From positions 2,366,501 to 2,430,500 of the forward strand of contig NZ_CP118605.1 in the NCBI RefSeq assembly GCF_029869925.1: a DNA stretch of 64,000 nt, written 5' to 3'. Shown in pieces: positions 398 to 8,534 of the stretch. Each line of letters begins with the position of its first letter. Position 1 is the first letter of the stretch. The notes under the pieces were generated by a model, which ran no database searches, had not been told where the DNA came from, and worked only from the letters and a program-made list of their open reading frames with translations. A program made the position numbers and the translations under genes. This DNA comes from Microbulbifer bruguierae. Lineage in GTDB: Bacteria > Pseudomonadota > Gammaproteobacteria > Pseudomonadales > Cellvibrionaceae.

Positions 398-457
398 TGG
401 ATCTTGGTAAGTTCGTCGTCTGTGCCACCCCAAATATCGGGGTTCTTTGTATTGCAG

Positions 458-602
458 TGGCGCCGGATCACCGGGTATGGATTTTTGAAACCGCTGTGAA
501 TACGTCCCTGTACGCTGCGTCGGCGACATCCCTGTCGCCGACGCTTTCAAAAATCCATACCCGGCAATCCGGCTTCCAATTGAAACTTTGCTCTTCGTCA
601 GC
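458..602 (-). repeat. Covarying stem-loop intergenic repeat, copy 1
   Basis: Read on the minus strand, the copy starts with GCTGACGAAG (602-593) and has a 19-nt spacer. A 29-nt arm (573-545) pairs with 490-462 except at two positions. Between the arms are hairpin A (GCGTCGGCGACA, 544-533, pairing perfectly with 528-517, loop GGGA), AGCG, a small hairpin B (TAC/GTA around AGGGAC, 512-501) and the linker TTCACAGCGG (500-491). GCCA follows at 461-458. The arm sequence is shared only partly with the other copies, yet it is complementary to its own partner. The copy lies in the mutL-amiB spacer; its conserved strand is the transcribed-sense strand. Confidence 0.85.
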
Positions 603-639
603 AGCTGCAGGGTGCCAAGCCACGATCCTTTGACGCGAA

Positions 640-754
640 GGCTGGATACTGGGGATAGGTTTTCAGAAGCGTCGCAAACAGGATGTTTGCGCCGCAGCGC
701 CCAGGGATGGGTTCACAGCGGTTCTGAAAACCTATCCCCAGTATACTGCCGCCA
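640..754 (+). repeat. Covarying stem-loop intergenic repeat, copy 2
   Basis: The 5' arm 640-668 pairs with 722-750; the inner 23 pairs (646-668 with 722-744) are perfect. Hairpin A is 669-680 with 684-695 (GCAAACA/TGTTTGC in the upper stem, one mismatch). Compared with copy 1 its pairs GGCGACA/TGTCGCC are replaced by compensated changes. Hairpin B is CCCA/TGGG around GGGA (700-711), again compensated against TACA/TGTA in copy 4. The linker TTCACAGCGG (712-721) and terminal GCCA (751-754) are intact. The upstream GCTGACGAAG block is not recognisable here. Copies 1 and 2 are head to head, about 37 bp apart arm to arm, in the amiB-mutL spacer. Confidence 0.85.
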
Positions 755-797
755 CAGAAGCAACTATCAACGTCCGCTGTTGCAGCGAGGTACCACA

Positions 798-2162
798 TCA
801 GCCGGATGGAATGGTAAGTGTCTGCCCCACCCGAATCATCGACGTAGCCATTCCGTTGGCCCTCTTCAGGTCCGCGACGGAAATGTTGTAGCGAGCCGCA
901 ATACCGGACAGAGTATCACCGCGGGAAATCGTGTGCCGGCGGTCGATGCGACTGGCGTTGGCAGCGAGCCAGCTGCCCGCCGGGGGGCGCGCTTTGAAGT
1001 GGGCCACTATACCTTCGCTGAGTTTTTCTGCCATGCGTTTCTGGAACGCAGGGTCACGCAACCTCCGCGCTTCCTGGGGGTTAGTGATAAAACCGGACTC
1101 CACCAGGATCGACGGCACATCCGGATTGCGCAGCACCGAGAAATTCGCCTGCTCCACCTTTTTCTTGTGCAGGTGGGTAAAACTGCCCAGGGAGTTCAGC
1201 ACACTGGTGCCAACATCCAGACTCGTATTCATGGTCGCGGTCATCGCCAGATCCAGCAAAACACCTGCCAGGGTATCGTCCTTGTCGCTGAGACTCAGAC
1301 TGCCGGCACCACCGATCAAATCCGACTCATTTTCCCGCTGCGCCAGAAAGCGCGCCGTCTCACTGGTCGCACCGCGGGAGGACACCGCATACACACCGGC
1401 ACCGCGGGCTTCCTTGCGACTGAAGGCATCCGCGTGGATAGAAACAAACAGGTCCGCGCGCAATTGCCGCCCTTTTTTCACCCGATCACGCAGCGGAATA
1501 TAGTAATCCCCGGTGCGTACCAGCCTGGCACTGAATCCCGGCTCGCGGTCAAGCGCCTTATGCAACTGGCGGGAAATGGCCAGCACAACGTCCTTCTCGC
1601 GCACCCCACCCGGACCCAGGGCCCCCGGATCTTCACCACCGTGGCCGGCATCGATGGCGATGACGATGTCCCGCTCACCTCTGACCTGAACCTGCTCGAT
1701 GGTTTTTTCCTCCACCTTGTCGCGGTCGTGCAGGTCGATTACCAGGCGGTCGGGAAGCTGTTCGTGGCGGCGCAAGGCGAAGCTGCGGGGATTGACCGGC
1801 TGTTTGAGATCCAGCACCACCCGCAGGTCGCGCTTGTCTTTGGTGGCGTGACGAATACCCGAGATGGGGGTATCCGCGATGGGCAGCCCCTCCACCGGCG
1901 CGGCGAGCTTGGCCCCGCTCACATCAATTACTACCCGGTCAGGATTTTGCAGTGTGAACAGTTTGTGTTCGGCAGGGCCGTCAAGGTCGAACACCAGGCG
2001 GGTGTGATCCGGGGCTCGCCACAGGCGCACCCCCTCCACCTCGGTGGCAGACACAGGCTGAAAAAGTGCCGCGGCAAACAACGCGAGCAGCCGCAGCACG
2101 CCGATGACAAATTCATTCGCCATGGATGATTTCGGTCCCTGCGGGATTCCTGCTGCAATCAT
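798..2162 (-). CDS. amiB: N-acetylmuramoyl-L-alanine amidase AmiB (AMIN-amidase_3-LysM)
   Basis: This is a periplasmic zinc amidase that cuts the amide bond between MurNAc and L-Ala to separate daughter cells. A hydrophobic signal segment (about residues 17-39, ending PVSA) is followed by an AMIN domain (about 42-145) for septal targeting. The amidase_3 domain (about 165-385) has zinc ligands H174 (IDAGHGG), E189, H243 (SIHAD) and a Glu in LVESGF. A LysM domain (about 410-452, HTISRGDTLSGIAARYN) closes the protein. The ATG at 2123 (MANEFVIG) makes a more ordinary signal peptide and is a good alternative start. It lies 42 bp after tsaE in a tsaE-amiB-mutL order shared with many gammaproteobacteria. 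Activation by EnvC/NlpD-type LytM factors is known for the family and is not shown here. Confidence 0.95.
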   Translation of the reverse strand: MIAAGIPQGPKSSMANEFVIGVLRLLALFAAALFQPVSATEVEGVRLWRAPDHTRLVFDLDGPAEHKLFTLQNPDRVVIDVSGAKLAAPVEGLPIADTPISGIRHATKDKRDLRVVLDLKQPVNPRSFALRRHEQLPDRLVIDLHDRDKVEEKTIEQVQVRGERDIVIAIDAGHGGEDPGALGPGGVREKDVVLAISRQLHKALDREPGFSARLVRTGDYYIPLRDRVKKGRQLRADLFVSIHADAFSRKEARGAGVYAVSSRGATSETARFLAQRENESDLIGGAGSLSLSDKDDTLAGVLLDLAMTATMNTSLDVGTSVLNSLGSFTHLHKKKVEQANFSVLRNPDVPSILVESGFITNPQEARRLRDPAFQKRMAEKLSEGIVAHFKARPPAGSWLAANASRIDRRHTISRGDTLSGIAARYNISVADLKRANGMATSMIRVGQTLTIPSG

Positions 2163-2204
2163 TCTTATTGCCCCGTTAATCGGTTTTTATTCTGCATCCG
2201 GCGG

Positions 2205-2732
2205 TTACTGATCCCGCTTTGCCTGATCCGACTGTAGCGCGAACTGTTTCAGTACCGCTTCGCCGGTCGCACTCAATGCGGCGATACTCAGGTCGCGGCC
2301 GAGTACATCCCCCTGGGTATGCAAATTGAGTGCAACTTCCAGATCCGGCGCCGGCAACACACCGGTACCGCGCTCGGACCACTCCACCAGGCTCAGGCTG
2401 CCTGGGCCGAAGTAGTCTCGCACCCCCATGTATTCAAGCTCTTCGGCATCCCCCAGACGATACAGGTCGAAATGGTAAACACTGTGCTCGCCAAATTCGT
2501 AAGGCTCCACCAGTGTATAGGTGGGACTCTTTACTGCACCGCGATGACCAAATGCCCGCAGCACGCCGCGACTAAAGGTAGTCTTGCCCGCGCCCAGCTG
2601 TCCGCCGAGAAAAATCACCAGTCCCTGATGCAGGCCGGTATCCCGGCAGGCCCGACCCAACTCTTCGCCGGCAACGACGGTGGCGGCCTCGTCGGCGAGA
2701 AACCGGGAACTTGCCATTGGCTGTGCACTCAC
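2205..2732 (-). CDS. tsaE: tRNA threonylcarbamoyladenosine biosynthesis ATPase TsaE
   Basis: TsaE is the P-loop ATPase that works with TsaB and TsaD to transfer threonylcarbamoyl to A37 of ANN-decoding tRNAs. The Walker A is GGQLGAGKTT at residues 43-52. It is followed by the family sequence SPTYTLVEPY and by VYHFDLYRL, which carries the Walker B-like Asp. At 175 residues it is slightly longer than E. coli TsaE (153), with a short extra N-terminus and a charged tail. The start is 9 bp from the nnr stop, so the two are almost certainly co-transcribed. The nnr-tsaE-amiB order is a classic conserved cluster. Confidence 0.95.
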   Translation of the reverse strand: MSAQPMASSRFLADEAATVVAGEELGRACRDTGLHQGLVIFLGGQLGAGKTTFSRGVLRAFGHRGAVKSPTYTLVEPYEFGEHSVYHFDLYRLGDAEELEYMGVRDYFGPGSLSLVEWSERGTGVLPAPDLEVALNLHTQGDVLGRDLSIAALSATGEAVLKQFALQSDQAKRDQ

Positions 2733-2741
2733 ACCTGTTCC

Positions 2742-4265
2742 TCAGTCGACCAGTTTACGGATGCAAGGCAGCAGATCCGTCGCCAGCAAACCGCGCTGGC
2801 CATCCGCAGCGGCGAGATTACCGGCTTCCCCATGAAGCCATACGCCGAGCCGCGCTGCTGCCGGCAAGGCCATACCTTGACCAATCAGAGCGGCAATAAT
2901 TCCGCTGAGCAGATCGCCCATACCACCAGAAGCCATACCCGGGTTGCCGGTGTTGATCAGGTCCACGCCGTCGTCATGGGCGATCAGGGTGCCTGTGCCT
3001 TTAAGTATCACCACGCCACTGAACTTGCGCTGAATTGCCGTCGCCGCGGCAACCCGGTCGGCCATGACTTCCTCCCGGGAAATACCCAGCAGACGCGCGG
3101 CTTCTCCCACATGGGGGGTCAGCACCCAGTCATCCCGTTTTATACCCGCCAGAACTCTACCTCCGGCGAGAATATTCAGTGCATCGGCATCCACCACCAA
3201 CGCTGCTTTAGCGCGGCCGGCGCGGGCCAGTAACTGTTCACTCCAGGGAGACTGGCCCAGCCCCGGACCCACTGCGATCACCGTCGGAGCTTCCAGCAAT
3301 GGCTCCAGCTCCTGCCCGGACACCACCGGGTGCACCATCACCGCGGGACAGCGGGTCAGCGCCGCAGCCACATGTTCCGGCCGGCTGGCCAGGGAAATCA
3401 GGCCTGCGCCGGTGCGGGCAGCGGCCTCCGCCGCCATCATCGCAGCACCGCCGAAGCCGTGGTCGCCGCCCACCACCATTACATGGCCGAACAGGTTTTT
3501 GTAGCTGTCCGCCGCGCGGGGCGCTAGGCGCTCCAGGGAATCACCATGGTATTTTTGCACCACCGCAGGCACCGTTGCATAGATGGTTTCGGCGGCACCA
3601 AGATCGTCAAAGAGAACCTCACCGGTCACGGCAGGACCGCGACCGAGAAAAAGCCCGGCCTTGCGGCCGATAAAGGTTACCGTCAGGTCAGCCCGCACTG
3701 CGTCTGTCGCCACGCCGGTATCGGCATTCAGGCCGGATGGGATGTCCACTGCCAGTACCGGCGCACCAGCGCGATTGATATGGGCCACGGCAGTATCCAT
3801 TGGCGCGCGTAATTCACCGCTGAAACCTGTACCGAGCAGAGCATCCACCAGCACGGTGTTTTTTTCTACCGCGGGCAGGCCGCCAAGATCCGACACCAGG
3901 GTAGCGCCCTCGCGCTCGGCGAAGCGGTAGGCTTCCAGAGCTTCGCCCTGCAGCCTGCCTGCGGGCACCGCCATATACACGGTCACCGGCAACTGGCGCT
4001 GAGCCGCGAGCCCCGCAATAACGAAACCATCGCCACCATTGTTGCCCCCCCCGCAGAACACCTGCAGCGCATTCACATCGGGCCAACGCGCGGTCAGCGT
4101 ATCAAAAGCGACACGACCGGCGCGTTTCATCAACGCGACCGCCGGTACCTGCTGCTGGTTGATGACATTGTGGTCCAGCTCGCGCACGGCGGCGGCGGAG
4201 TAGAGTTTTTGTGGGGTTGTGCTGGCCGGGGCCTTCTGGCTATCCATAGGTGATTCGTACTGCAT
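2742..4265 (-). CDS. nnr: Bifunctional NAD(P)H-hydrate epimerase / ADP-dependent dehydratase
   Basis: Nnr repairs hydrated NAD(P)H. The N-terminal YjeF half (about residues 20-220) epimerises NAD(P)HX and shows GGGNNGGDGFV and the nucleotide-binding VDALLGTG. The C-terminal ribokinase-like half (about 230-500) dehydrates the S form using ADP and shows VGPGLG, a central VDADALN, LKGTGTLI and the catalytic-loop sequence NTGNPGMASGGMGD. I chose the ATG at 4265. A TTG further upstream and an ATG at 4247 (MDSQKA) are alternatives, and no clear ribosome-binding site decides. The gene diverges from queG, so their promoters must share roughly 70-100 bp. It is first in the run nnr-tsaE-amiB. Confidence 0.93.
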   Translation of the reverse strand: MQYESPMDSQKAPASTTPQKLYSAAAVRELDHNVINQQQVPAVALMKRAGRVAFDTLTARWPDVNALQVFCGGGNNGGDGFVIAGLAAQRQLPVTVYMAVPAGRLQGEALEAYRFAEREGATLVSDLGGLPAVEKNTVLVDALLGTGFSGELRAPMDTAVAHINRAGAPVLAVDIPSGLNADTGVATDAVRADLTVTFIGRKAGLFLGRGPAVTGEVLFDDLGAAETIYATVPAVVQKYHGDSLERLAPRAADSYKNLFGHVMVVGGDHGFGGAAMMAAEAAARTGAGLISLASRPEHVAAALTRCPAVMVHPVVSGQELEPLLEAPTVIAVGPGLGQSPWSEQLLARAGRAKAALVVDADALNILAGGRVLAGIKRDDWVLTPHVGEAARLLGISREEVMADRVAAATAIQRKFSGVVILKGTGTLIAHDDGVDLINTGNPGMASGGMGDLLSGIIAALIGQGMALPAAARLGVWLHGEAGNLAAADGQRGLLATDLLPCIRKLVD

Positions 4266-4338
4266 CCAAACTGTGGTCAATTTTTAAACTGTGGCAAAAT
4301 ACCCGGAATTATACCGCTTCACTCCAGCAACCGCCCCA

Positions 4339-5469
4339 ATGACATTCACCTCCCCTGCCAGTTCTTGCTCCGACGAGATGCTCACCGAGCTCGCCGCCCA
4401 TATCCACCGCTGGGGGCGGGAGCTGGGCTTCCAGCAGGTGGGGATTACCGATTGCCAGCTGGAACAGCACGGTGAACGTTTGCAGACCTGGCTGGAGGCG
4501 GGCTACAACGGCGATATGGAGTGGATGGGCAGCCACGGCGCCAAGCGCTGGCGGCCGCAGTTGCTGGAAGAGGGCACCCTGCGGGTAATCAGCGCGCGCC
4601 TGGATTACCTGCCTCCGGATACCGAGCCGGTCAGAATTCTGAAAGACCCCGGCAAAGCCTATGTGTCCCGCTACGCCAACGGCCGCGACTATCACAAACT
4701 GATCCGCAAGCGACTGGCGCAGCTGGCACAGCAGATAGATCGTTTTTGCGCTGAGCGCGGCATTGCTGCCAGTGGACGGGCGTTTACCGACAGCGCGCCG
4801 GTGATGGAGCGGGCGCTGGCTGAAAAGGCGGGACTCGGCTGGATTGGCAAAAACTGTATGGTCATCAACAGTCAGGCGGGCAGCTGGTTTTTTCTCGGTG
4901 AGATCTACACCAACCTTCCGCTACCGGTGGATGTGAGCGAAGAGCCCAACCAGTGCGGCGAATGTACCGCCTGCCTGAAGGTCTGTCCCACAGATGCATT
5001 TGTGGATGCCTACACCCTGGACGCACGCCGCTGTATCTCCTACCTCACCATCGAAAACAACGGCCCCATCCCCGAGGAATTCCGTGAGCCTATGGGCAAC
5101 CGGGTATTTGGCTGCGACGACTGCCAGATCATCTGCCCCTGGAACAAGTTCGCCAAGCCTACCAGCGAATCCGATTTTCACCCGCGCCACGGCCTGGACA
5201 GTGGCGAGCTACTGGACCTATTTCGCTGGCGCGAGGAAGAATTTCTGAAAAAAACCGAAGGTTCAGCAATTCGGCGGATCGGGTTTGAGCGGTGGCAGCG
5301 GAATTTGGCTGTGGCGCTCGGGAACTCGGATCCCGCTCCGGAAACAATTGCTGTTTTGGAAGGAGCGCTTGATTCTGTCTCACCGTTGGTGGCGGAACAT
5401 ATTGAGTGGGCTTTGGGAAGATTGCGGAGTGGGCGACGTCGGAAACGGAAAATCAAACGAACTCCCTAG
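4339..5469 (+). CDS. queG: Epoxyqueuosine reductase QueG
   Basis: QueG carries out the last step of queuosine tRNA modification, reducing epoxyqueuosine with a cobalamin and two [4Fe-4S] clusters. The cluster ligands are visible as CGECTACLKVCP (Cys206, 209, 212, 216) and GCDDCQIICPWN (Cys259, 262, 266). The first 180 residues contain the family signatures GWIGKNCM and YVSRYANGRDYHK. The length of about 376 matches E. coli QueG (379). I took the ATG at 4339; ATG 4378 (MLTELAAHI) would also leave the conserved fold intact, and a GTG at 4291 is unlikely because it would run into the divergent nnr. The last ~20 residues are basic and unconserved. Confidence 0.94.
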   Translation: MTFTSPASSCSDEMLTELAAHIHRWGRELGFQQVGITDCQLEQHGERLQTWLEAGYNGDMEWMGSHGAKRWRPQLLEEGTLRVISARLDYLPPDTEPVRILKDPGKAYVSRYANGRDYHKLIRKRLAQLAQQIDRFCAERGIAASGRAFTDSAPVMERALAEKAGLGWIGKNCMVINSQAGSWFFLGEIYTNLPLPVDVSEEPNQCGECTACLKVCPTDAFVDAYTLDARRCISYLTIENNGPIPEEFREPMGNRVFGCDDCQIICPWNKFAKPTSESDFHPRHGLDSGELLDLFRWREEEFLKKTEGSAIRRIGFERWQRNLAVALGNSDPAPETIAVLEGALDSVSPLVAEHIEWALGRLRSGRRRKRKIKRTP

Positions 5470-5542
5470 ACCACTCCTACTTCAGTGGTATTTGGTGCTC
5501 TGTTGTCACCTTAGAGGCGGCGTAGGCGGCGGGACACCTGAG

Positions 5543-5700
5543 GCTTACGAAGTACAAAAACCGAAATTTAAGGTGGAGTGACGGGGATCGGTTTTCAAAA
5601 GCGTCGGCGACAAGGACGTCGCCGACGCAGCGTACAGGGAAGTATTGAAGGGGGGCGCCTAGCCCGGTTTTGAAAACCGATCCCCGTCGCTCCACCGCCA
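5543..5700 (+). repeat. Covarying stem-loop intergenic repeat, copy 3 (extra hairpin)
   Basis: The 5' block GCTTACGAAG (5543-5552) is followed by the standard 19-nt spacer. The 29-nt arm 5572-5600 pairs with 5668-5696 throughout, with a single G-T wobble. Hairpin A is GCGTCGGCGAC (5601-5611) with 5618-5628. Hairpin B is reduced to TAC/GTA (5633-5644). The usual TTCACAGCGG linker is replaced by 23 nt (5645-5667) that contains its own small stem, GGGC/GCCC (5653-5656 with 5662-5665). GCCA ends the copy at 5697-5700. It sits between the convergent genes queG and orn, where it may also act as a bidirectional transcription barrier (inference). Confidence 0.85.
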
Positions 5701-5731
5701 GCGCGCCTGCTTCCAAGCCATCATATATCGT

Positions 5732-6274
5732 TCAACTCATACGAAAAAAGTGCTCACGATAGTGCTTCAGCTCATTGATCGAATCGTGAATATCATCCAG
5801 TGCGAGGTGCGAAGAAGTCTTTTTCACCCCATCCAATACATCCGGTCGCCAGCGCCGCGCCAGTTCCTTGACCGAACTGACATCCAGGTTGCGGTAGTGA
5901 AAGTACTGCTCCAGTAGCGGCATATACTTCACCAGAAAGCGGCGATCCTGCCCGATCGAGTTGCCGCACATGGGGGACGCGCCTTCCGGCACCCAATGGC
6001 GCAGGAATTCGATGGTTTCGCGTTCCGCCTCGCGCTCGCTGATCTGCGACTCTTTCACCCGCGCAACCAGACCGGACCCACCGTGCTGCTCGGTATTCCA
6101 ATCGTCCATGGCATCCAGCAGCGCATTACTCTGGTGAATCGCCATCACCGGCCCTTCCGCCAGCACATTCAGGCGGGAATCCGTCACCACGGTGGCAATC
6201 TCGATGATGCGTTCCTTTTCGGGATCGAGGCCGGTCATTTCCAGATCGATCCAGATCAGATTATTCTGATCCAC
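5732..6274 (-). CDS. orn: Oligoribonuclease Orn
   Basis: Orn is a DEDDh 3'-5' exonuclease that degrades 2-5-mer RNA, and in c-di-GMP-using bacteria the dinucleotide pGpG. The 180-residue length is standard. Motif I is [10 protein letters not shown] (D10, E12). The family-typical HGGSGLV and SIGQDRRFL (motif II Asp) follow, and [11 protein letters not shown] carries the motif III His and Asp. The gene is convergent with queG and divergent from rsgA, as in P. aeruginosa (orn-rsgA). Removal of pGpG by Orn is relevant in a genome with type IV pilus signalling, but the link is inferred. Confidence 0.97.
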
Positions 6275-6378
6275 AGTAGTCTCCTATCAGGCCGCAAACG
6301 GAAGACGGCGAAGTTACAGGTGGGAGGGTGGAATAGTAGGTAGAACGCACGGTACCGCAATCCACCCCCGATGCAAGT

Positions 6379-6384
6379 TATAAT
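6379..6384 (+). promoter_or_regulatory. Likely -10 box of the rsgA promoter
   Basis: A perfect TATAAT lies 28 bp before the rsgA ATG at 6412, in the 137-bp spacer between divergent orn and rsgA. No good -35 hexamer is seen at 16-18 bp, so this rests on the -10 box and position alone. Confidence 0.4.
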
Positions 6385-6411
6385 CCCCGACTTTCCGCAA
6401 ACCGAGCCCCC

Positions 6412-7443
6412 ATGAGCAAACGCAAACTCAACCGCCGCCAACAGTGGCGCATCGCCAAAATCCAGCAGGAGCGCGAGGCGCGTGCACGCAAGCGGGAAGA
6501 AAACCTCGGGCACGCAGAAGAAGTCGGCGACCTCGGTGCAGAGCAGACCGGCCTTGTCATCGCCAACTATGGCACCCAGGTGCTGGTCGAAAGCAGCATG
6601 GATAGTGAGTTGCGACAGCGCTGCCATGTTCGGGCCAATATCGACACGCTGGTCACCGGTGACCGGGTAGCCTGGAATCCTGCCACCGGTGAATCCACCG
6701 GCGGGGTCGGCGTCGTTGGTGCCCGCCTGCCGCGGCACTCGGAACTGCAGCGACCGGATCGCTACGGCGACATGAAAACCGTTGCCGCCAATATCGATCG
6801 CATCCTCATCGTCATCGCGCCCTACCCCGAGCCCTTCGCCAACGCGATCGACCGCTATCTGGTCGCCGCCGAAAGTACCGGTATACAACCCCTGCTGCTG
6901 CTGAACAAAATTGACCTCATCGACGACGGCAACCGCGACAGTCTGGACGAGCTGCTGGCCCCCTACCCCGGTCTCGGTTACCGGGTACTGAAACTGTCCA
7001 CCAAGACCGGCGAAGGACTCGACGGCCTGCTCACCACCCTCGCCGAGGGCACCAGCGTGTTTGTCGGCCAGTCTGGCGTCGGCAAATCTTCCCTGATCAA
7101 CGGCCTGCTCCCCAGTGCCGACGCCCGCACCGGTGCACTGTCGCAAGCCACCGGCAAAGGCACTCATACCACCACCGCCGCTGAACTGTTCCATCTGCCC
7201 AGTGGCGGCGATCTGATAGACTCCCCCGGCATCCGCGAATTCGGCCTCTGGCACATGAGCGAGCAGGAACTGCTGGAAGGCTACGTAGAATTTCGCCCAT
7301 TTATCGGCCACTGCCGCTTCCGCGACTGCCGCCACCAGAGTGAACCCGGCTGCGCCATTCAGGAAGCGCAGGAGCGCGGCGACATCAGCGAACGACGCAT
7401 GGAAAGCTATCTGCACCTGCGCAATAGCCTGGAAAACGAATAG
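6412..7443 (+). CDS. rsgA: Ribosome small subunit-dependent GTPase RsgA
   Basis: RsgA is a circularly permuted GTPase that checks late maturation of the 30S subunit. In order there are a basic N-terminal tail, an OB fold (about residues 45-115), the G4 motif NKID (165-168), G1 GQSGVGKSS (219-227) and G3 DSPG (about 268). A C-terminal zinc knuckle (CRFRDCRHQSEPGC) follows. Having G4 before G1 is the diagnostic permutation. The length of 343 matches E. coli RsgA (350). The orn/rsgA divergent pair is conserved in gammaproteobacteria. The next gene starts 40 bp downstream and may share the transcript. Confidence 0.97.
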   Translation: MSKRKLNRRQQWRIAKIQQEREARARKREENLGHAEEVGDLGAEQTGLVIANYGTQVLVESSMDSELRQRCHVRANIDTLVTGDRVAWNPATGESTGGVGVVGARLPRHSELQRPDRYGDMKTVAANIDRILIVIAPYPEPFANAIDRYLVAAESTGIQPLLLLNKIDLIDDGNRDSLDELLAPYPGLGYRVLKLSTKTGEGLDGLLTTLAEGTSVFVGQSGVGKSSLINGLLPSADARTGALSQATGKGTHTTTAAELFHLPSGGDLIDSPGIREFGLWHMSEQELLEGYVEFRPFIGHCRFRDCRHQSEPGCAIQEAQERGDISERRMESYLHLRNSLENE

Positions 7444-7483
7444 GCCAAAAAAACACAGGCCAAAAATGATTTAGGAAAACACC

Positions 7484-8290
7484 GTGAGTGAAATTCCCCT
7501 GATCCTGGAACCGGAACAACTGGTGCCATTGCTGGAACACGAAGAAATCAAAATCGTCGATCTCAGCGCGCCCGCCAACTACCTTGCCGGCCACATTCCC
7601 GGCGCCATCGGCCTGCCCTTTCAGGCACTGATGGCAGGCACCCCGCCGGCACCGGGAAAACTGCCTTCACTGGAACGGCTCACCGAAGTCTTCCGTGCTA
7701 TTGGTCTCACATCGGACACCCATATTGTCGCCTGTGACGACGAAGGCGGCGGCTGGGCCGGGCGCCTGCTGTGGACCCTCGAAGTGATCGGCCATACAAA
7801 ATACAGCTATCTGAACGGCGGCATGCACGCCTGGAAAGCCGCCGGCCTGCCACTTTCCACCGAAGAGGTGAGTGTCACCCCCAGCGAAATCGAAATTGCC
7901 ATCGCCGCAGGTGCGCCGTTGATCGACGCGGAACAAATCCGGCAGCGCCTCGGTCACAACGACTTTCAGATATGGGATGCCCGCTCCCCCGCCGAACATA
8001 GCGGTGAACGGGTACTGGCAATGAAGGGAGGCCATATTCCCGGTGCGATCAATTGCGAATGGACGCAGTTGATGGACCCACAGCGCGACTTGCGAATCCG
8101 CCAGGATGCGAAGGAATTTTTGGCCGCCCTGGGAATAAACGGCGAGAAAGAAATCGCCACCCATTGCCAGAGCCACCACCGCTCGGCGTTTACCTGGTTG
8201 GTGGGAAAATCCCTGGGATTCCCCATAAAAGCTTACCCTGGCTCATGGAGTGAGTGGGGCAATTTGCCGGATACACCGGTGGAGAATTAA
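7484..8290 (+). CDS. rhdA: Tandem-rhodanese thiosulfate sulfurtransferase, RhdA type
   Basis: Two rhodanese domains are present (about residues 12-125 and 145-262), the second being catalytic. The active-site loop is CQSHHRS (C228-S234). This closely resembles the CQTHHR loop of Azotobacter vinelandii RhdA and differs from the CGSGVTA-type loop of mercaptopyruvate sulfurtransferases, so thiosulfate or another persulfide source is the likelier donor. The first domain also has a Cys (C84, CDDEGGG). The start is a GTG preceded by TTAGGAAAACACC, with AGGA at good spacing; no ATG fits. In P. aeruginosa the homologue also lies just before psd. Confidence 0.88.
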   Translation: MSEIPLILEPEQLVPLLEHEEIKIVDLSAPANYLAGHIPGAIGLPFQALMAGTPPAPGKLPSLERLTEVFRAIGLTSDTHIVACDDEGGGWAGRLLWTLEVIGHTKYSYLNGGMHAWKAAGLPLSTEEVSVTPSEIEIAIAAGAPLIDAEQIRQRLGHNDFQIWDARSPAEHSGERVLAMKGGHIPGAINCEWTQLMDPQRDLRIRQDAKEFLAALGINGEKEIATHCQSHHRSAFTWLVGKSLGFPIKAYPGSWSEWGNLPDTPVEN

Positions 8291-8362
8291 TTTAGCGCGA
8301 CTGCCCGCCGGATTCCTATCTGCGCGGGAATGACGAAAAATAAATCTTCAGTAAATGCGATC

Positions 8363-8478
8363 GCTGACGAAGTCAAAATACTCAAATTGAAGGTCAGGTA
8401 GCGGGGATTCGTTTTCGAAAGCGTACATGGATGTATTCACAGCGGTTTCGAAAACGAATCCTCGATGCCTGACCGCCA
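8363..8478 (+). repeat. Covarying stem-loop intergenic repeat, copy 4 (hairpin A absent)
   Basis: GCTGACGAAG (8363-8372) and a 19-nt spacer precede the 29-nt arm 8392-8420. This arm pairs with 8446-8474 with two G-T wobbles and one mismatch. Hairpin A is missing. Hairpin B (TACA/TGTA around TGGA, 8424-8435), the TTCACAGCGG linker (8436-8445) and terminal GCCA (8475-8478) are all present. It lies in the 244-bp spacer between rhdA and psd. The rest of that spacer holds no gene. Confidence 0.85.
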
Positions 8479-8534
8479 CTAAACGTGATTAACAGCGCCC
8501 CTGAAATCCAGCGCCCACAGGAATCAAATTTTCA

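Follow-up and report, generated by a model that had tools for sequence, protein, structure and literature searches.

The window considered here is a stretch of 64,000 nucleotides of the Microbulbifer bruguierae genome (2366501-2430500 of a single 4,481,396-base contig) that contains four copies of a palindromic repeat, numbered 1 to 4 along the sequence. Copies 1 and 2 lie head-to-head beside an amidase gene, with their 5' ends 60 nt apart and a neighbor on their other side that extends beyond the window, copy 3 is found between the convergent queG and orn genes, and copy 4 between the genes for a rhodanese (TST) and psd. According to Pfam, the genes around the copies encode an amidase with AMIN and LysM domains, TsaE, YjeF_N/Carb_kinase, QueG, an RNase_T exonuclease ("orn"), RsgA, the rhodanese ("TST") and phosphatidylserine decarboxylase (psd), which is an ordinary chromosomal set. 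The copies had been located in a preliminary description made from the sequence alone, and their positions are confirmed both in the sequence itself and by a covariance model trained on 28 copies from the genome, the four window copies among them. In the window, the model recovered all four with expectation values (E) from 6.7e-29 to 1.5e-15; the other matches were opposite-strand shadows of the copies and one row at 7584-7668 with E 0.063, which is at chance level.

Table 1. Parts of the four copies, in window positions, with E values from the covariance model
Feature	Position	Strand	Basis or remark
Copy 1, full two-hairpin element	457..576	-	E 6.7e-29; 5' block GCTGACGAAG extends to about 602
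Copy 1, 5' arm	545..573	-	pairs with 462-490; alignment columns 4-32/101-129
Copy 1, 3' arm	462..490	-	alignment
Copy 1, hairpin A	517..544	-	12 bp, loop C-AGGGAT-G
Copy 1, hairpin B core TACAGGGACGTA	501..512	-	alignment
Copy 2, full element	637..755	+	E 2.1e-26
Copy 2, 5' arm	640..668	+	pairs with 722-750
Copy 2, 3' arm	722..750	+	alignment
Copy 2, hairpin A	669..695	+	CAGGATG loop as in the CsrB-type repeat; one base shorter
Copy 2, hairpin B core CCCAGGGATGGG	700..711	+	alignment, fold
Copy 3, element with extra 3' hairpin module	5569..5701	+	E 4.2e-24; 5' block from 5543
Copy 3, 5' arm	5572..5600	+	pairs with 5668-5696
Copy 3, 3' arm	5668..5696	+	alignment
Copy 3, hairpin A	5601..5628	+	loop AAGGAC
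Copy 3, hairpin B core TACAGGGAAGTA	5633..5644	+	alignment, fold
Copy 3, extra hairpin GGGC-GCCTA-GCCC	5653..5665	+	inside segment replacing TTCACAGCGG
Copy 4, hairpin A lost	8389..8479	+	E 1.5e-15; 5' block from 8363
Copy 4, 5' arm	8392..8420	+	pairs with 8446-8474
Copy 4, 3' arm	8446..8474	+	alignment
Copy 4, hairpin B core TACATGGATGTA	8424..8435	+	alignment; the copy's own lowest-energy fold pairs the core differently

From 5' to 3', the element consists of a block (GCTNACGAAG), 19 nt, a 29-bp arm, hairpin A, an A, hairpin B, the partner arm and GCCAC. Hairpin A has 12 bp in its full form, and hairpin B is made from a 4-bp core and a short lower helix. The 29-bp arms are as first described, and the arm column singled out at that time is G, A, C and T in copies 1 to 4, each with its correct partner. 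A single plan had been ascribed to all four copies, which holds for copies 1 and 2 but not for copy 3, which lacks TTCACAGCGG, or copy 4, in which hairpin A is lost and a single hairpin kept. The exact TTCACAGCGG is thus present only in copies 1, 2 and 4, and copy 3 has TTGAAGGGGGGCGCCTAGCCCGG in its place, a module common to other genome copies. The 5' block does lie 19 nt before the arm in copies 1, 3 and 4, as had been stated, but its sequence is not the same throughout: GCTGACGAAG in copies 1 and 4 versus GCTTACGAAG in copy 3. Copy 2 has no such block. In copy 3 (5645-5667) and at loci L012, L016, L017, L018, L021, L022 and L030, a GGGGGGCGCCTAGCCCGG-type segment replaces or extends TTCACAGCGG; this segment is a swappable third hairpin in a subset of copies.

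The covariation of a folded element, which was the central claim of the preliminary description, is borne out by an alignment of the 28 copies. Standard pairs fill 93.4% of the paired cells, compared with 77.9% after shuffling, and none of 500 shuffles reached as high. Changes on both sides of the pair are found in 30 of the 48 pairs (213 such cells versus 63.5 in shuffled alignments), and pairing falls to 37.7-44.5% when the partner is shifted by 1-3 columns. All four Watson-Crick types occur at arm columns 20 and 21. The arm includes conserved columns (GGG, TTT) alongside free ones, and at columns 11-12 a tandem G-U wobble predominates (U-G in 18/28 copies, G-U in 16/28). At the base of helix A, columns 33/60 show compensatory G-C, C-G and U-A pairs, which would bring hairpins A and B and the arm together in a compact three-way junction, a tentative geometry. 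In minimum-energy folds, the sense strand, which carries the GGA loops, is the more stable one in three of the four window copies.

Mismatches in the arms distinguish between the two strands. If pairing were kept as double-stranded DNA, the arms would be expected to show G-U and A-C mismatches at similar frequencies. Counted with symmetric alignment scoring, since covariance-model alignments favor G-U, and among copies that share ancestry, the G-U:A-C ratio was 111:11 in the M. bruguierae genome (74 of 77 elements), 68:4 in relatives (55 of 59) and 124:25 class-wide (103 of 116), the 3, 4 and 13 rows left out having short arms or being repeats. Arm mismatches are thus mostly of the kind that keeps the GGA strand foldable. 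The repeat is a real, class-wide structured element whose foldability is kept on one strand. This asymmetry is a better fit to RNA than to DNA, and it is the strongest single result pointing to a function as RNA or, less likely, as sense-strand single-stranded DNA (ssDNA). The same ratio also offers a simple sequence test for RNA- versus DNA-level selection in extragenic palindromes.

Both hairpins present the same loop. The loop columns in the alignment read C, A, N, G, G, A, N, G, and the A and the GGA are constant in nearly all 28 copies, while the two N positions vary. A-N-GGA is found in both loops in 66/77 elements of the M. bruguierae genome and 56/59 of those in relatives, and the distance between the two GGAs is 20-21 nt in 66/66 and 55/56 of the elements having both loops, respectively. 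In an independent test, a pattern constrained only at hairpin B and the bases after it was scanned over named genomes and gave at least 120 loci. A GGA was present 19-21 nt upstream of the pattern in 108 of 122 cases (14 had none), compared with 256 of 6000 random places. In the 99 cases with the GGA at 20-21 nt, its neighbors were C(88) A(86) N GGA Y G(94), and the information around it was 1.3-2 bits at the C, A, GGA and G versus 0.13-0.94 bit at stem positions. An A-N-GGA hairpin lay upstream of the pattern in 98/122 cases (57/2400 random 60-mers), and complementary arms surrounded it in 90/116 (12/1997 random places).

These features resemble those of binding sites for the RNA-binding protein CsrA (RsmA). 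The CsrA consensus selected in vitro (SELEX) is given as RUACARGGAUGU with an ANGGAN hexaloop, and the repeats of the small RNA (sRNA) CsrB as CAGGA(U/A/C)G; one CsrA dimer is described as bridging sites 10-63 nt apart, with an optimum above 18 nt (PMC7652899). Elements with both loops have two ANGGAN hairpins within this bridging distance. Judged by sequence, both loops match the published CsrA/RsmA consensus, at a spacing that one CsrA dimer can bridge. The exact RUACARGGAUGU occurs 11 times in the M. bruguierae genome, nine of them inside elements, and the two outside are as many as were found with the reversed-pattern control. The loop, spacing and strand evidence is strong. It goes against the original preference for a DNA element over an RNA signal: pairing kept through G-U and loops matching the consensus of an RNA-binding protein indicate the opposite.

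M. bruguierae itself has one csrA gene, whose product is close to solved CsrA chains and has the binding residues L4 and R44. A csrA gene was found in 242 of 276 genomes of a sample of the class. In the same genus, six genomes (G003, G004, G006, G009, G010 and G014) have 5-19 csrA matches and 0-30 element matches, and most other searched members of the genus have one csrA and dozens of elements. A link between csrA copy number and the elements was dropped, since the six multi-csrA genomes form one clade and thus count as one event. In G017, G018 and G008, csrA seems to be missing or truncated, but this is not evidence either, as the neighboring stretch reads N.

Within its own genome the element is abundant. 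BLASTN with copy 1 gave 36 matches and the covariance model at least 110 at E 0.1, on both strands and including the opposite-strand shadows of the palindrome, which are also included in the match counts for other genomes. Rescoring 65 fetched stretches and removing the shadows left 75 separate places 75 nt or longer, 44 on the plus and 31 on the minus strand; 79578-79622 (under 75 nt) and 2038476-2038543 (which missed E 1e-4) were left out. When the contig is divided into ninths, the first two hold few copies (3 and 2), and the highest numbers are found in the sixth (13) and the seventh (14).

Up to 150 candidates were scored in the M. bruguierae genome, 95 in each relative and 13 in each genome of the class sample. 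Among relatives, 26 of 38 genomes, M. bruguierae included, have matches, with at least 85-95 in each of ten other genomes of the genus, and three other families of the order carry the element (f4, f6 and f11). In the class sample, at least 45 of 276 genomes and 41 of 216 genera, again including M. bruguierae, match at E 1e-5, which is a lower bound because the model was trained on this genus. Of the pattern loci, 29 were compared with the model, and 28 matched it along its full length. They come from Marinobacter, Halomonas, Stenotrophomonas, Methylomicrobium, Thiofilum, Cellvibrio, Yersinia similis, Pectobacterium and others; for Halomonas and Methylomicrobium, the matching sequence does not coincide with the pattern site. 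One genome (G034; L119, L170 and L175) has a tandem array of the element on the same strand with a period of 233 bp, unlike the dispersed form.

Gene calls made by a simple codon-usage script classified 65 of the 75 copies by their neighbors, the other 10 having no neighbor in the fetched stretch, and 7 of the 75 overlapped a predicted frame. Among the classified copies, 47 lie between co-directional genes (27 sense, 20 antisense), 15 are flanked by convergent genes and 3 by divergent ones, so that divergent (promoter) gaps rarely hold copies. The 3' end of a neighboring gene points at the element in 62 of the 65, and no more than 64 nt separate the facing stop codon from the copy in 33 of the 47 co-directional cases. 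Read-through from neighboring genes is the simplest route of expression.

Copies within 300 nt of each other are mostly arranged head-to-head: (-,+) in seven and (+,-) in two of nine cases in the M. bruguierae genome, and (-,+) in nine cases among relatives, plus one same-strand tandem array that overlapping loci counted three times. Class-wide there was one of each inverted kind, and seven further neighbors at pattern loci tested with the model were all (-,+). The occupancy of orthologous sites also varies. Among 22 queG-orn gaps listed, including that of M. bruguierae, the model found nothing in 10 (two of these gaps being only 20-23 nt), head-to-head pairs in 8, a single copy in 3 (2 oriented as in M. 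bruguierae, 1 the opposite way) and a partial match in 1. The TST-psd gap has a gene-oriented copy in 12 of the 16 loci listed, and in the other 4 the apparent ends of the element remain with the core deleted. In this gap (L126-L141), both arms switch together as blocks between species, which suggests that copies may exchange sequence with one another through gene conversion or replacement. The preliminary description was thus right in calling the element dispersed, mobile-like and of mixed orientation: it occupies 75 places in both orientations to genes and zero, one or two copies at one orthologous site.

The novelty of the element is more limited than its first description implied. It is true that no Rfam model matched the window at gathering score, but the element is kin of the catalogued TwoAYGGAY, YPAL/RU-2 and Ysr224. 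TwoAYGGAY (RF01731) belongs to the same Rfam clan (CL00106) as CsrB and was listed by Weinberg and others from human gut, gamma-Proteobacteria and Clostridiales (PMC2864571). It shares the long outer arm, hairpin A, an A-G linker, hairpin B and the GGA loops, and the plan of two GGA-loop hairpins on an outer stem is found here as well; it differs in having AYGGAY loops, where those here are mostly AGGGAY, and in being described as an sRNA candidate rather than a dispersed high-copy repeat. Its model gave nine matches in the M. bruguierae genome, eight of them element copies in the sense direction, with a best score of 37.4 bits, and matched 2 of 19 class-wide loci (best 38.3, L362); wherever it was compared, including 18 of the pattern loci, the gathering score of 43 was not reached, and Rfam scans of 20 other loci did not list TwoAYGGAY at all. 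CsrA binding has been proposed for TwoAYGGAY by Gardner and Eldai (PMC4333381). That proposal aside, no link between CsrA and such dispersed repeats was found in the parts of the literature searched, which included few subscription journals, and no paper there named CsrA and YPAL together.

YPAL, which is the same as the RU-2 repeat of Y. pestis (PMC2759123), has been described as a mobile repeat that duplicates 3-26 bp of its target (PMC2229807) and is present in up to 144 copies per Yersinia genome (PMC2847712). Like the present element, it is dispersed and intergenic, with empty and filled sites reported; such sites are seen here at queG-orn in relatives, at species-level divergence. By eye, the RU-2 sequence printed in Table 1b of PMC2759123 has a hairpin, CGCGCCAAGGATGGCGCG, followed by TACATGGATGTATTTACGGCG and partner arms, and the covariance model covers copies in Yersinia similis (E 6.7e-10) and Pectobacterium aroidearum (4e-10) over all its positions, so that the two-hairpin plan is common to both. 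The arm and stem sequences of YPAL/RU-2 are, however, unlike those here. In Y. similis and Pectobacterium, Ysr224 (RF02770) matches the strand opposite the GGA loops at gathering score (L267 7888-7994 (-) and L273 638-745 (+)), and the Rfam entry may therefore describe the antisense of a YPAL-type copy.

CsrB, CsrC and RsmX/Y/Z likewise have several GGA-loop hairpins with the CAGGA(U/A/C)G repeat (PMC7652899), but they are single sRNA genes with many sites, whereas the element has two sites per copy, dozens of dispersed copies and no evident promoter or terminator. Repetitive extragenic palindromes (REPs) and REPINs resemble it as dispersed extragenic palindromes in inverted pairs. A REP/RAYT system, as defined in PMC3733652, combines a GTAG/CGTC-tagged palindrome of 20-40 bp with a RAYT gene; the present element is much longer, has no such tag at its ends and no associated RAYT was found. 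Nor do the copies have the alike terminal inverted repeats of a miniature inverted-repeat transposable element (MITE), since the arms vary. The early comparison with REP/RAYT-like elements is thus not upheld: a search for Y1 transposases, which did not extend to other transposase families, found only two loci, one interrupted by a stop codon and the other flanked by unrelated REPs. At L032, ordinary GTAGGAGCCTGCTTGCAGGCGAA-type REPs (about 1347-1410 and 1918-1940) flank a RAYT-type gene, and the genome thus seems to have a separate REP/RAYT system.

The current thinking is that each copy is probably a dispersed RNA module akin to TwoAYGGAY/YPAL that serves as a two-site docking platform for CsrA (RsmA). 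We infer transcription, CsrA binding, a regulatory effect and a mode of movement along the following lines. A transcript from a neighboring gene would run through the copy on the GGA strand, and the three-way junction would fold. The long arm would insulate the fold, with each hairpin showing an A-N-G-G-A-N loop, and one CsrA (RsmA) dimer would clamp both GGAs, which are 20-21 nt apart. Locally, CsrA in the untranslated region (UTR) would be likely to alter decay of the transcript or read-through; globally, the dozens of copies would be likely to act as decoy sites that titrate CsrA. The element would spread by inserting into the gaps that follow genes and would degenerate as its palindromic core is deleted.

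The same fold could act without CsrA, as a UTR stem-loop that shapes mRNA stability or termination, with GGA loops that serve another binder or none. This is rather unlikely, even though the folds are very stable, gene 3' ends face nearly all classified copies, and YPAL is described as co-expressed with upstream genes, with a possible influence on RNA stability (PMC2229807, citing De Gregorio 2006): a structural role needs neither A-N-GGA-N in both loops, with N variable just where CsrA tolerates it, nor a fixed spacing. Dispersal, the prevalence of head-to-head neighbors, presence or absence and both orientations at one orthologous gap, and the strand asymmetry itself would also be accommodated by an ssDNA substrate, folded while the DNA replicates and mobilized by an HUH-type transposase in the way that RAYTs mobilize REPs, the loops and arms being features for DNA recognition. 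We consider this improbable, since of the two Y1-transposase loci (the only transposase family searched) one is stop-interrupted and the other has GTAGGAGCCTGC-type REPs, the arm, a possible reading site for a transposase, is the most variable part, and the loop consensus belongs to an RNA-binding protein. A neutral palindrome, in which template switching during replication copies one arm onto the other and maintains pairing without function, would account for the block-wise arm changes and apparent core deletions at TST-psd. It treats both strands alike, however, and should give equal numbers of G-U and A-C mismatches, so that the observed counts strongly disfavor it; with the loop consensus left unexplained as well, it is highly improbable.

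Several observations weigh against CsrA docking. A control pool of imperfect inverted repeats drawn at random from the fetched loci, which may include some elements, also leans slightly to G-U (207:163, p 0.025). In ssDNA, G-T is somewhat better tolerated than A-C, and the asymmetry alone would thus also be compatible with ssDNA. In the RNAalifold structure, columns 34-35 pair with 98-99 instead of 58-59, the sense strand of copy 2 is not the more stable one, hairpin B in the minimum-energy fold of copy 4 is unlike the model, and copies with one hairpin or otherwise without two exist (copy 4, L019 and L030). There is no clear orientation bias relative to co-directional genes, which is odd for a cis-acting RNA signal. 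No TTTT was found within 19 nt after the element in 76 copies, and with no promoter established either, the element is not a typical sRNA gene. The association with csrA speaks for docking but is weak, with kinship and genome size as confounders: csrA is present in 44 of 45 element-bearing and 198 of 231 other genomes (Fisher one-sided p 0.013, ignoring both), and one element-bearing genome (G227, 270 contigs) is absent from the csrA list, in which 14 of the genomes without a csrA match are not named. Finally, most SELEX ligands have stems of four or fewer bp (PMC7652899), and hairpin A, with up to 12 bp, is longer.

What was already known comprises TwoAYGGAY, from the clan of CsrB and with CsrA binding proposed in print, and the YPAL/RU-2 repeats of Yersinia; new are the union of the two, the high-copy dispersed form outside Yersinia and the strand, spacing and loop evidence. 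If the copies of the proposed docking module bind CsrA, a large part of the genome's CsrA sites would reside in scattered repeats and not in dedicated sRNA genes, changes in repeat copy number would alter global regulation, and the orphan families TwoAYGGAY and YPAL/Ysr224 would gain one testable function. A more speculative and rather doubtful extension is that a class-wide mobile RNA element constitutes a distributed CsrA buffer, in which dozens of two-site clamps per genome would spread the sponge function of CsrB-type RNAs over the transcriptome and tie CsrA occupancy to transcription of neighboring genes, perhaps even with CsrA shielding the RNA of the element itself; on this view, YPAL, Ysr224 and TwoAYGGAY would each be a fragment of a single family.

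At one further locus (L026), a TPP riboswitch at 1301-1399 (-) adjoins a copy of the element at 1467-1586 (-).

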